Shown: positions 36,710-43,655 of the stretch, piece by piece
Layout: each line of letters opens with the position of its first letter
Numbering within the stretch: position 1 is the stretch's first letter
NCBI GenBank assembly: GCA_002238425.1
Contig: MPMJ01000001.1
Span: forward strand, 1 to 64,000
DNA length: 64,000 nt
DNA from: SAR202 cluster bacterium bin16
Lineage (GTDB): Bacteria > Chloroflexota > Dehalococcoidia > Lucifugimonadales > Australimonadaceae
Direction: 5' to 3'
Made by a program: the position numbers and the translations under genes
Notes under the pieces: generated by a model
What the model saw: only the letters and a program-made list of their open reading frames with translations
Told to the model about the DNA's origin: nothing
Databases searched by the model: none

Positions 36710-36793
36710 GTGATAACTATAACGCCAGGGTGATACCACGGACAGCTGGTACTTGCTATCATTGGCACATCCTTCCAAGGGATAGGCGAACTC

Positions 36794-37954
36794 ATGGCTG
36801 ACAAGAAGAACACGCTTCACCTGCCTGACCTCACGATAGACGGCTTTCGTGGGATTGAGTCGCTCGCTATTCCCCGCTTGGGGCGTGTTACGCTAATCGC
36901 TGGCAGGAACAGCGTAGGCAAGACGACGATTCTGGAGGCTGTTCGGATATACGCTGGTCAAGGTAGCACATCTCCTCTCTTTGACCTGTTAAGGAAACGG
37001 GAAGAGTTTTCACTAGCCATTGATGAAGACGGGGACAATGCAACCAATCTTGATTGGCCCACACTGTTCTATGGGCGCAATATTTCTCAGGAGTCCCACA
37101 GCTCAATTGGGCCTGCAAATCCTGCAGACCGGGTACTCATTGAATCGACTGTCTTGCGAGAAGATGAGATTGACGAATTGCCCAATGACTTCTCGGCTGA
37201 AGCTCCTTTCCAAGTCATTCGGCTTAAGTTTCGGCGAAACGAAAGAATAGCTCCATGGATCATCTCACTAAGTGGTTCTAGGAGTTCCAATAGCTATTAT
37301 ATCCCACGGGCAATACGCCGACTATCCCAAAGCACCGAGGCCGTTCCTGAGATTAAGTGCGTCTCCCTAGGCCCAGATATCATAACAAACCGAATGATAG
37401 CAGAGCTATGGGATGACGCCGCAGATCTTAAGGAAGAAGGCCTCGCGGTAGAGTCACTCAAGATAATATTCGGTAGGGATATAGAGGACGTAGTCATGAT
37501 TGGAGAAGACAGGTCGAATAGGCCATCTCCGTGGAGAGTTGGTGGGGCTATAGGTGGTCGTAGGGCGAAGGCAAGCCTCCAGTACTTCAACCACCGTGTC
37601 CCCCTGAAGAGTCTGGGGGATGGGGCAATACGGCTATACGGAATTGCTTTGGGTTTAATCAATAGTAGGGGCGGTTTTCTGTTGATCGATGAGGCAGAGA
37701 ATGGCCTGCACTATTCAGTTCAGCATGACTTCTGGAGTATGGTGCTTCAGGAAGCAGAAGCAAACAACGTGCAGGTTCTGGCGACTACGCATAGTGCAGA
37801 CTGTATAGATGGGTTTGCACTCGCAGCTTCTGAACATCCAGATATTAGTAGTGTTTACCTCCGGCTGGATAAGGACGCCAGCGGTCATTTCATCGTTGAC
37901 TATCCTAAGGAAGATTTGGTTGTTGCATCTGAACATGGGACGGAAATGCGCTAG
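36794..37954 (+). CDS. OLD/AAA15-type ATPase, putative defense ATPase
   Basis: LTIDGFRGIESLAIPRLGRVTLIAGRNSVGKTTILEAVRIY (Walker A), GGFLLIDEAENGLHYSVQ (Walker B), VLATTHSADCIDGF (H-loop); AT-richer than flanks. Confidence 0.85.
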   Translation: MADKKNTLHLPDLTIDGFRGIESLAIPRLGRVTLIAGRNSVGKTTILEAVRIYAGQGSTSPLFDLLRKREEFSLAIDEDGDNATNLDWPTLFYGRNISQESHSSIGPANPADRVLIESTVLREDEIDELPNDFSAEAPFQVIRLKFRRNERIAPWIISLSGSRSSNSYYIPRAIRRLSQSTEAVPEIKCVSLGPDIITNRMIAELWDDAADLKEEGLAVESLKIIFGRDIEDVVMIGEDRSNRPSPWRVGGAIGGRRAKASLQYFNHRVPLKSLGDGAIRLYGIALGLINSRGGFLLIDEAENGLHYSVQHDFWSMVLQEAEANNVQVLATTHSADCIDGFALAASEHPDISSVYLRLDKDASGHFIVDYPKEDLVVASEHGTEMR

Positions 37955-37956
37955 CA

Positions 37957-38640
37957 ATGGTAACCAGTCAGCAGACAGAAGAATCTGAAAATATACTCCT
38001 AGTTGAAGGGGAAGATGATTTGCATGTCGTGCTTAACCTCTACCAACGCATCGAAAACCAAGAACCGAACTTCTGGATCTTAGACAAGAAAGGGTTCAAT
38101 AACTTGCTCGCTGATATCAACAATCAAATCAGGAAGTCTCAGCGACAGAAAATCGGCATTGTATTTGATGCTGACTGCAAGCGCAATAGTGACGGACAAA
38201 TGAATCGCTGGGTAGACATTAGAGACAAGATTAGGGAACTTAATGGCATAGTCATACGGAAAAATATAGCGCGCAAGGGGACAATAATCAAAGGTAGGCC
38301 CGACGGCATAGGCCATTTTCCTCGTATCGGTATTTGGATGATGCCTGACAATCAATCCCCAGGTGAATTAGAGGAATTCATCGATTCGATGATTCCAACC
38401 GACAACCCAGCGCGCCGACTTGCGAAGTCCTATATCAGCTGCATTCTAAAGGAAGTCTCAGAGGCCAATGACAAGGGTCGCTTAGCGGAAAGGAAAACTC
38501 TAAGGGCGGAGATTCATGCTTGGCTTGCCACGAGAAAGAGGCCGCGCCACTTGGGTGCAGCTATCGCAGCAGAATATCTGAATACTAACGTCAAGACTAG
38601 CACGGAATTCATAGGATGGGTTAAGAGATTGTTCTCTTAG
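37957..38640 (+). CDS. TOPRIM-like (DUF3226-like) protein, putative defense partner
   Basis: NILLVEGEDDLHVVLNLY (acidic motif 1), KIGIVFDADCKRN (DxD motif), IWMMPDNQSPGELEEFI; starts 2 nt after ATPase stop. Confidence 0.7.
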   Translation: MVTSQQTEESENILLVEGEDDLHVVLNLYQRIENQEPNFWILDKKGFNNLLADINNQIRKSQRQKIGIVFDADCKRNSDGQMNRWVDIRDKIRELNGIVIRKNIARKGTIIKGRPDGIGHFPRIGIWMMPDNQSPGELEEFIDSMIPTDNPARRLAKSYISCILKEVSEANDKGRLAERKTLRAEIHAWLATRKRPRHLGAAIAAEYLNTNVKTSTEFIGWVKRLFS

Positions 38641-38802
38641 GTTATTCCCTCAGAAAATCCCTACACTCCTATGAAGCGCTTCCCAGGGGCGTGCATGTAT
38701 TCTCAACAGGCATGAGGGCGCTGTGGCTCCGTGCTATGTAGGTCCTGCGAACGGTGGTCATGCGTACAGTGTAGCGAGCGTCCCGAAAGCGGAGCAACCT
38801 CG

Positions 38803-40113
38803 CTAACGGCCCGCAGCCCGCGCGAAGATCTCCTCTGCCGTGCGCGCGATGGGCCCGTACTTGCCGGTGGGGCTGCGAACGAGCTTGCCCGTGTCCGGGT
38901 CCTTCTCGCCGGACATGGGCAGGGCCTGGAACGCTCCGCCTATCTGACGGCGTCCCTTCAGCCTGCGCTCGCCGGGCGCGCGGTGCTCATCGAAGGTGAA
39001 GATGATCTCGTTCTCCGCGGGGTCGCGGAACGTATTCATCGGGTCGATGCCGTCCTCAACCAGCCGCATCTGCTCTTCCAGCAGCTTGCGGTACATGATG
39101 ATGCCGATGTCCGACTGCCCCAGCTTCTCCAGGTGGCGCTTCGCGATGGGCCCCTGCGTCCACCACGCCATCGTGTCCTGCCCGATGACGAAGTTCACGG
39201 CAGCGCGGCCTTCCTCGTCGACATAAGGCACGTCGTAGCCCGGAATCTCTTCCTGTGGCTCCAGCTCGACGCCCTCCGGCGGCACGTAGACGTTGTAGAG
39301 GATGTGCCACGTGGTCGTATCGTCTATCGGCACGCGCATCTGGAATCCGGTGGTGCCGCCGAGCCAGTTCGGGAAGATGATGGGATGGCCGATCGTCCAC
39401 TCCGGGTCGTCCTCAGTCGTCCCCTCGACCACGCGCTTCTTCACGAGACCGTTCGCGTAGCGGTCGAACCCGATCTTCTGATGCGTGCGCCGGGCGATCT
39501 CGCTGCGGTCCGCTATCGTGCCCTCGCGCTCGAGCACGGCACTCGTCTGGTAGACGTGCAGCCATTCCGTGTGGACGGGGTCCATCGAGTTCTCCATGCA
39601 CTGCAGCCAGTTGCAGGGCAGAACGGTGGTCCCAATGTCGCGCAACACGTTGTCCCATGCGAGCAGGTCCCATCGCGGCAACAGCGGCGCGGGCGCAGGG
39701 CCCATGTACGCCCAGAGCAGTCCGCCTAGTACCTCCACGGGGTAGGCGGTGACGCGCACCTTCTCCTTGAACCTGCCGTCAGGGTGTACGGTCTCCTCGA
39801 ACGGCTGCTCGATGCACTGGCCGGTCTCGTCCATCATCCAGCCGTGATACATGCAGCGCAGGCCGTGCTCCTCCGGTATGCCGTAGGAGAGGTCGACACG
39901 TCGGTGGGGGCAGAAGCGGTCGAGCAGTCCATACTCGCCGGAGCGGTCGCGGTAGAGGACGAGGTCCTCCCCCAGGATACGAACAGGCGTAGTGGGTCTC
40001 TTGTTCAGTTCCGACGTGACCGCGACGGGCTGCCAGTAGCGCCGCATCAACTCGCCCATCGGCGTGCCCGGTCCTACGCGCGTGAGCCGTTCGTTCTCAG
40101 CCGTTGACAGCAT
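38803..40113 (-). CDS. Rieske [2Fe-2S] aromatic ring-hydroxylating oxygenase alpha-type subunit
   Basis: [33 protein letters not shown] (CxH..CxxH), DPVHTEWLH. Confidence 0.93.
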   Translation of the reverse strand: MLSTAENERLTRVGPGTPMGELMRRYWQPVAVTSELNKRPTTPVRILGEDLVLYRDRSGEYGLLDRFCPHRRVDLSYGIPEEHGLRCMYHGWMMDETGQCIEQPFEETVHPDGRFKEKVRVTAYPVEVLGGLLWAYMGPAPAPLLPRWDLLAWDNVLRDIGTTVLPCNWLQCMENSMDPVHTEWLHVYQTSAVLEREGTIADRSEIARRTHQKIGFDRYANGLVKKRVVEGTTEDDPEWTIGHPIIFPNWLGGTTGFQMRVPIDDTTTWHILYNVYVPPEGVELEPQEEIPGYDVPYVDEEGRAAVNFVIGQDTMAWWTQGPIAKRHLEKLGQSDIGIIMYRKLLEEQMRLVEDGIDPMNTFRDPAENEIIFTFDEHRAPGERRLKGRRQIGGAFQALPMSGEKDPDTGKLVRSPTGKYGPIARTAEEIFARAAGR

Positions 40114-40170
40114 GATGGCGCCCCCTGTTCCGTACGTCGGGCGCATGATACGCCGGGGTACATGGAGCGT

Positions 40171-41496
40171 CTACGCGGACGGAATAGCCCGGCGCTTCGC
40201 CTCTGCGAAGGTCTCCTCCGCCGTGAAGGCGATGGGGCTGTACCTGCCCGTGAGGCTGGGTACGTGCCTGCCCGTTTCCGGCTGGCGCTCGCCGGACATG
40301 GGTACAGCCATGAACGCGCCCCCGAGTTGCAGCAGACCCTTCTCGGGGCGCGCTCCCGGCGCCCGGTACTCATCGAACGAGTAAAGAGTCTCGTTCTCCG
40401 CAGGGTCGCGGAACGTGTTCATCGGGTCGACGCCGTCCTCCACGAGCCGTATCTGCTCCTCCAGGAGCTTGCGGTACATGATGACGCCGACGTCCGACTG
40501 CCCAAGCTTCTCTCTCGTCCGGTCCGCTATCGGCCCCTGCGTAACCCAGGCCGACGAATCCTGCGCGACCACGAAGTTCTGCAGGTAACGCCCGTCCTCG
40601 CCCACATAAGGAACGTCGTAGCCGGGTATCTCCTCCTGCGGCTCCAGTTCGACGCCCTCCGGCGGCACGTAGACGTGGTAGAAGAAGTTCAACGTGTGGG
40701 TGTCGTCCACTGGCACGCGCATCTGGAAGCCGTTGATGATGCTCACCCACGTTGGAAAGATGATGGGGTGGCCGACCGTCCACTCGCGGTCCTGCTCGGT
40801 CGTGCCCTCGACGACACGTCTCTTGATGACGCCGTTCTCGTATCGGTCCAACCCGATCTTCCGGTGCGGGCGCCGCGGCATCTCGTTGCGGTCGGCTATC
40901 GAACCCTCGCGCTCCAGGACCGCGCTCGTCAGGTTGACGTGCAGCCATTCGGTATGGACGGGGTCGACCGCGTTCTCCACGCACTGGAGCCAGTTGCACG
41001 GCAGCACCACGACGCCGATGTCACGCAGCACGTTGTCCCACACCAGCAGATCCCAACGCGGCAGCAACGGCACGGGAGCGGGCCCCATGTACGCCCACAG
41101 CAACCCGCCCAGCTCCTGCACCGGATAGGCTGCGACGCGCACCTTCTCCTTGAACCTGCCGTCCGGGTGGACGGTCTCCTCGAACGGCTGCTCGATGCAC
41201 TGCCCGTCCGCGTCGAACATCCAGCCGTGGTACATGCACCGCAGGCCATGCTGCTCCGGTATGCCGTAGGAGAGGTCGACGCGGCGATGGGCGCAGTACC
41301 GGTCGATCAGCCCGTACTCGCCGGAGCGGTCGCGGTAGAGGACGAGGTCCTCGCCGAGGATGCGCACGGGCTTCGTGGGCCTGGCGTTCAACTCGGAGGT
41401 GACGGCGATGGGCTGCCAGTAACGGCGCATCAGTGCGCCCATCGGCGTGCCCGGCCCTACCCGCGTGAGCCGTTCGTTCTCAGCCGCTGACAACAT
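40171..41496 (-). CDS. Rieske [2Fe-2S] oxygenase (tandem paralog)
   Basis: CAHRRVDLSYGIPEQHGLRCMYHGWMFDADGQC; DPVHTEWLH. Confidence 0.93.
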   Translation of the reverse strand: MLSAAENERLTRVGPGTPMGALMRRYWQPIAVTSELNARPTKPVRILGEDLVLYRDRSGEYGLIDRYCAHRRVDLSYGIPEQHGLRCMYHGWMFDADGQCIEQPFEETVHPDGRFKEKVRVAAYPVQELGGLLWAYMGPAPVPLLPRWDLLVWDNVLRDIGVVVLPCNWLQCVENAVDPVHTEWLHVNLTSAVLEREGSIADRNEMPRRPHRKIGLDRYENGVIKRRVVEGTTEQDREWTVGHPIIFPTWVSIINGFQMRVPVDDTHTLNFFYHVYVPPEGVELEPQEEIPGYDVPYVGEDGRYLQNFVVAQDSSAWVTQGPIADRTREKLGQSDVGVIMYRKLLEEQIRLVEDGVDPMNTFRDPAENETLYSFDEYRAPGARPEKGLLQLGGAFMAVPMSGERQPETGRHVPSLTGRYSPIAFTAEETFAEAKRRAIPSA

Positions 41497-41644
41497 AGGC
41501 CGCATGATACGCAGGGGGGTGGTTCATCGCCACTGACTCCCCGGTGTCGTGACACCTGCCCCTTACCCGGATGCCGCTGAGTCTCTACGATGGTTCTGCA
41601 AGGAACGGGCGCCTGCGGCAAGCCCCAGGCTGGCCGCTCAAGGG

Positions 41645-43572: not shown

Positions 43573-43621
43573 CAGTCCCGTCGTTCACAGCAGCCCTCGA
43601 CATTCCCGCACCTCACCCGTC

Positions 43622-43641
43622 ATTCCCGCGAAAGCGGGAAT
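43622..43641. repeat. REP-like palindrome ATTCCCGC-GAAA-GCGGGAAT
   Basis: Perfect 8-bp arms; same family as 21562-21581; half copy near 43601. Confidence 0.65.
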
Positions 43642-43655
43642 CCAGGAGCAAACAG

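Follow-up and report, generated by a model that had tools for sequence, protein, structure and literature searches.

Toprim effectors are turning up in many defence systems, and few of them have known substrates. The 64,000-nucleotide stretch analysed here (the window) contains two adjacent genes whose base composition differs from their surroundings, which raises the question of what these genes are, how they arrived and what they may do. A sequence-only reading proposed a split pair of an OLD-like ATPase and a Toprim protein, horizontally acquired and a candidate for defence, a proposal with which protein families, PADLOC profiles, predicted folds, phylogeny and gene neighbours agree. The features of the locus are as follows.

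36710..38802 (about), no strand: horizontally acquired cassette between two convergent genes (empty sites in G003/G004 and GC)
36710..36793, forward strand: operon 5' leader (GC 0.50)
36794..37954, forward strand: ORF 1, ATPase gene, 386 aa, ATG start; OLD/AAA15 ABC ATPase of PDC-M38A type (Pfam, PADLOC, AlphaFold2)
37957..38640, forward strand: ORF 2, nuclease gene, 227 aa, ATG start; predicted DUF3226 Toprim nuclease of PDC-M38B type (Pfam, PADLOC, AlphaFold2, Foldseek)
38641..38802, no strand: 3' tail of the insert, with no recognised ORF or repeat

The positions of both ORFs and their spacing of 2 nt on the same strand were recovered exactly as the sequence-only reading had given them. The AT-richness that it had pointed out is evident as well: GC is 0.45-0.50 over both ORFs versus 0.63-0.69 on either side and 0.49 over the whole insert versus a window mean of 0.65, and all 2.1-kb stretches elsewhere in the window have a GC of at least 0.61. 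The motifs that it had listed (GRNSVGKTT, LLIDEAENG, ATTHSAD, LLVEGEDD and GIVFDADC) are all present, and since their key residues are kept in 69-72 homologues they are not due to chance.

An insert of ~2.1 kb with exact boundaries, which the sequence-only reading had missed, could be delimited because two same-genus genomes, G003 (L036) and G004 (L037), have nearly abutting flanks without the pair between them. There the flanking SDR and Rieske-oxygenase genes are ~90% identical to those of the window and only about 10-25 bp separate the SDR stop codon from the end of the Rieske gene. The insert fits exactly between the two convergent stop codons and neither gene is damaged. In G001, a third relative, no pair adjoins the SDR orthologue, and a pair of its own lies elsewhere in the genome. 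Comparison of these sites suggests insertion within the window's lineage as the simplest reading. The cassette is foreign and was horizontally acquired by a Chloroflexota bacterium; vertical inheritance, which had been held to count against the proposal, is contradicted by the empty sites and by the mixing of phyla in the tree described below. Since the insert contains no terminal repeats, integrase or transposase, transposon or integron cargo was rejected. A scan of the 5' leader (36710..36793) found no consensus sigma-70 promoter, and a terminator scan was uninformative as well.

The surroundings of the insert show some features of their own. Directly beside it, at 38803-41505 on the reverse strand, lie two tandem Rieske-type oxygenase genes, each of which also matches the other's orthologue in G003 and G004 with ~82-83% DNA identity; because of these cross-matches they are considered paralogues from a duplication that the window shares with G003 and G004. 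Positions 43608-43646 hold a palindromic intergenic element, CCCGTCATTCCCGCGAAAGCGGGAATCCAGG, which occurs once in the window, while the syntenic region of G001 (L038), a genome of the same genus, has several copies; it looks like a REP/MITE-type repeat. The flanking short-chain dehydrogenase has at least 44 SDR-family matches in its own genome (G000, 3.2 Mb), an expansion that is large for a genome of this size and alike in relatives.

Protein 1 was found by profile search to match AAA_15 (1e-16) and AAA_21 (2e-16), as well as PADLOC's PDC-M38A (2.2e-70, residues 11-386 to profile positions 3-383 of 383), a family matched by all 69 homologues. AlphaFold2 models of both proteins were built on the homologue alignments of the present analysis. 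That of protein 1 (pLDDT 89.5) displays the ABC-head fold, and Foldseek identified SMC, Rad50, PtuA and OLD ATPase heads with probability 1.0. The motifs are Walker A (GRNSVGKTT), Walker B/D-loop (LLIDEAENGLH) and H-loop (ATTHSAD). The 69-sequence alignment shows conservation of Walker A K43, D299-E300, D-loop H306 and H333; the D-loop His, typical of OLD, is found in 67/69 homologues and the H-loop His in 69/69. The C-terminus reads E-(V/I/M)-R in nearly all homologues, R386 being kept in 68/69, and one might speculate that this conserved Glu-(Val/Ile)-Arg tail could dock the nuclease. No coiled coil or extra DNA-binding domain is evident in the model of M38A.

Protein 2 is a DUF3226 protein (PF11536, E 2e-42) without a DUF4435 match, as had been suspected of the effector, and matches PDC-M38B (1.3e-36, residues 8-227 to profile positions 10-219 of 220), as do 72/72 homologues. 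A profile comparison between proteins 1 and 2 found nothing, as expected. The Toprim fold claimed for protein 2 is borne out by its AlphaFold2 model (pLDDT 92.9), the best credible Foldseek match in the PDB being the Toprim of Burkholderia OLD (6nk8, probability 0.95, TM 0.48/0.54). Together with Thermus OLD (6p74, probability 0.94) this is the only match above 0.9 among those listed, AriB coming next at 0.28. Toprim scores are modest (TM ~0.5, E 0.03) and no match to the PDB fell below E 0.001. The secondary structure of the model runs in the order of a Toprim: strand 1 is followed by E17, strand 3 ends with D71, and E139 opens the helix that comes after strand 4. Burkholderia OLD binds metal by E400, E404, D455, D457, T506 and E508, assisted by K562, and RNase M5 has the same active-site plan (PMC6755086); in Thermus OLD the residues are E377, D381, D431, D433, S478 and E480 (PMC7049728). 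The equivalents in protein 2 would be E17, D21, D71, D73, E139 and R183, as judged by alignment order, spacing and secondary structure rather than coordinates, and the OLD two-metal site thereby appears almost completely alignable. Among 72 sequences E17 and K/R183 are conserved in 72, D71 and E139 in 71 and D21 in 68, while D73, the second Asp of the DxD, is Asp in 51/72 and Asn in 20/72. No equivalent of T506 is conserved in the protein 2 alignment, and a search for covariation between Asn at position 73 and at position 131 found none.

Whether the two genes form a conserved neighbourhood had been raised as a check, and the pairing proved obligate. In 78 of 80 loci the gene directly upstream of the nuclease gene is that of the ATPase; a contig end cuts the remaining two, so that the genes are adjacent in 78/78 informative loci from more than a dozen phyla. 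The Chloroflexota survey gave 27 of 28 loci, with the exception at a contig edge. Inter-protein distances correlate (Mantel r 0.84, reached in 0 of 2000 permutations), which indicates that the proteins travel together, not that they touch, since the shared ancestry of neighbours contributes.

The distribution of the family is patchy. DUF3226 was found in 28/399 Chloroflexota genomes and in 6/59 relatives, and is absent from most of the window's own genus and family. Some 85,000 species were scanned and gave 287 relatives. More than a dozen phyla are represented among the best 80; many of these 80 apparently come from sponge-associated metagenomes, judging by isolate names. A DNA search of E. 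coli genomes gave no close copy. Phyla are mixed in the protein 2 tree (33 label changes versus a minimum of 13), and the pair moves between phyla. The window copy is split by a starred branch from the copy of same-genus genome G005, which falls in a different supported clade, and same-genus copies sit at different genome places. Exact donors cannot be named because branch support is otherwise weak. The nearest relatives of the window pair are ~42-44% identical, and the window pair is a diverged PDC-M38 member. Chloroflexota also contain a second, deeply separated clade of DUF3226/ATPase pairs (L042 and L043 in G020, L045 in G025), and genome G020 has three different pairs.

Plasmid carriers span 4-40 kb, and most copies found are chromosomal. 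The pair is nearly the sole cargo of a 4,071-bp Klebsiella ColRNAI plasmid (L049), and also occurs on a mobilizable Citrobacter plasmid of 6,449 bp and on Acinetobacter plasmids of 10-40 kb. The DUF3226 gene of L049 seems to cross the record start and is without an entry in the plasmid's gene table. Searches of phage records and a first search of viral contigs gave no match; a later profile scan identified one IMG/VR provirus with the pair beside an integrase and phage genes farther along. The next gene of this provirus (L160:5034-6218, reverse strand) reads by its motifs as an Mrr-type restriction endonuclease and, given this neighbour, this part of the phage is a possible site of defence cargo.

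Genes adjoining the pair were screened with PADLOC (1e-20). The neighbours include HmaB, HmaC, DUF499, a DUF1156 methylase, mad3, type I, IIG and III restriction genes, HEC-01A and PD-T4-6, among them a type III methylase and a type IIG/DrmMI-like gene; restriction-modification, Hma and MADS genes are frequent but not universal companions, and ordinary metabolic genes are mixed in. As a control from one genome, the 44 other genes of the window gave one weak oxidoreductase match and no convincing defence hit. The family hence frequents defence islands, often but not always, and the window copy is solitary among metabolic genes. A family never found in such islands would have spoken against a defence role; the Hma, restriction-modification and mad3 neighbours show that this one is found there.

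By its profile matches the pair is a member of PADLOC candidate PDC-M38 (M38A plus M38B), which is already catalogued, something of which the sequence-only reading was unaware. The PDC families stem from a guilt-by-embedding screen, and the majority of them are without validation (PMC12988326); another PDC pair, PDC-M63AB, showed no defence when tested (PMC12409345). A literature search, mostly outside subscription papers and bioRxiv preprints, found no paper on PDC-M38 or DUF3226.

We consider it probable, at about 0.68, that the pair is a mobile two-gene innate-immunity cassette in which an OLD-type ABC ATPase acts as sensor and inhibitor and a free two-metal Toprim nuclease of OLD/RNase M5 type as effector. 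In PARIS, an AriA hexamer sequesters AriB, and Ocr-like proteins release AriB, which cuts tRNA-Lys (PMC11455837, PMC12409363). By analogy with AriA and AriB, we propose that M38A would oligomerise via its ABC heads and hold M38B inactive. A phage-dependent signal, for example an anti-restriction protein, a DNA end or altered ATP, would shift the state of the ATPase; M38B would then be released or switched on and cut tRNA or DNA, and the infected cell would stop growing. The data establish the two families, the predicted folds, the conserved catalytic residues, the obligate pairing, the co-divergence, the mobility and the frequent though not universal defence neighbours, while sequestration, trigger, protective outcome and substrate, be it tRNA or DNA, are inferred. 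Counting against this reading are the solitary position of the window copy, the Asn that replaces the second Asp of the DxD in 20/72 sequences, the modest Toprim scores, the negative outcome for PDC-M63AB and the non-defensive OLD-family ATPase Cran1 described below.

The presence of the pair as almost the only cargo of the 4-kb ColRNAI plasmid and on other small plasmids, as well as its compact two-gene operon, would also suit a toxin-antitoxin style module that stabilises small plasmids or islands, with the ATPase as antitoxin, the Toprim nuclease as toxin and phage defence as incidental. This seems rather unlikely, since most copies are chromosomal and many have defence neighbours; moreover, PARIS shows that both roles can overlap (PMC11455837). 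Unlikely too is a direct nucleic-acid defence, by which the ATPase recognises foreign plasmid or phage DNA and guides the Toprim nuclease to nick it while the host survives. It is suggested by the resemblance of the ATPase model to SMC, Rad50, PtuA and OLD heads and by the DNA-cutting activity of the Toprims of OLD and Gabija (PMC6755086, PMC10568477), but M38A shows neither an evident coiled coil nor an additional DNA-binding domain, and the nuclease is a small separate protein, an arrangement as close to that of AriB and RNase M5 as to that of OLD.

An OLD-family ATPase can be non-defensive, as is shown by Cran1, a factor of the archaeal cell cycle (PMC12796447), which would allow for a housekeeping pair in DNA repair or the cell cycle. 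We regard such a role as highly improbable and have rejected it: a patchy distribution, scarce even in the own genus and family, largely refutes it, as do the empty sites, the different places of same-genus copies and the different clade of the G005 copy. Returning to the immunity cassette, a further and more tentative idea, which we find doubtful, is that PDC-M38 forms a distinct, very widespread split-OLD immunity class that has a trigger of its own, acts on a substrate other than those of PARIS and Gabija and is marked by the near-invariant ATPase tail.

The M38 family is compact, spans more than a dozen phyla and resides on small plasmids of enterobacteria that can be used in the laboratory; its predicted catalytic residues are ready mutation targets. 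Knowing how it works would reveal whether the split OLD systems have a common sequester-and-release design or evolved separate triggers and targets. In addition, the exact empty site is a clean record of the gain of a defence cassette in an uncultured Chloroflexota genus.

Among known systems, PARIS shares with the pair the split ABC ATPase and Toprim nuclease encoded by adjacent genes, and the sequence-only reading had called the pair PARIS-like. As a membership this does not stand and was rejected for want of the AriB/DUF4435 partner. Neither the AriB nor the AbiLii profile matches protein 2, and the effector has 227 aa here versus about 305 aa in PARIS. The AriA profile matches protein 1 at 4e-21, far below PDC-M38A (2e-70) and AbiLi (1e-41); the AriB profile was reached weakly by 3/72 protein 2 relatives, and the DUF3226 profile finds AriB in the PDB weakly (E 0.1). 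The AbiLi match covers the whole length of protein 1, with a profile that is unspecific (13/14 control genomes match), whereas the partner here is DUF3226 and 0/72 protein 2 members match AbiLii; membership of AbiL was therefore rejected. OLD nucleases (class 1 and 2, GajA) have in common the Toprim fold, the two-metal plan and an ABC head whose D-loop and H-loop each carry a His, but OLD proteins of classes 1-3 hold both domains in one polypeptide, while here two ORFs are separated by a stop. As for Gabija, no GajB helicase is adjacent, the flanks being the SDR and Rieske genes. HEC-01, a Hma-embedded candidate, likewise combines an ATPase with a small partner; protein 2 matches HEC-01B at 3e-6 over the first 80 or so residues, far weaker than the M38 profiles (1e-36 for M38B), and HEC-01 is a separate family. 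With PDC-M38, both proteins match over their full length and in the same gene order, and nothing separates the window pair from it.
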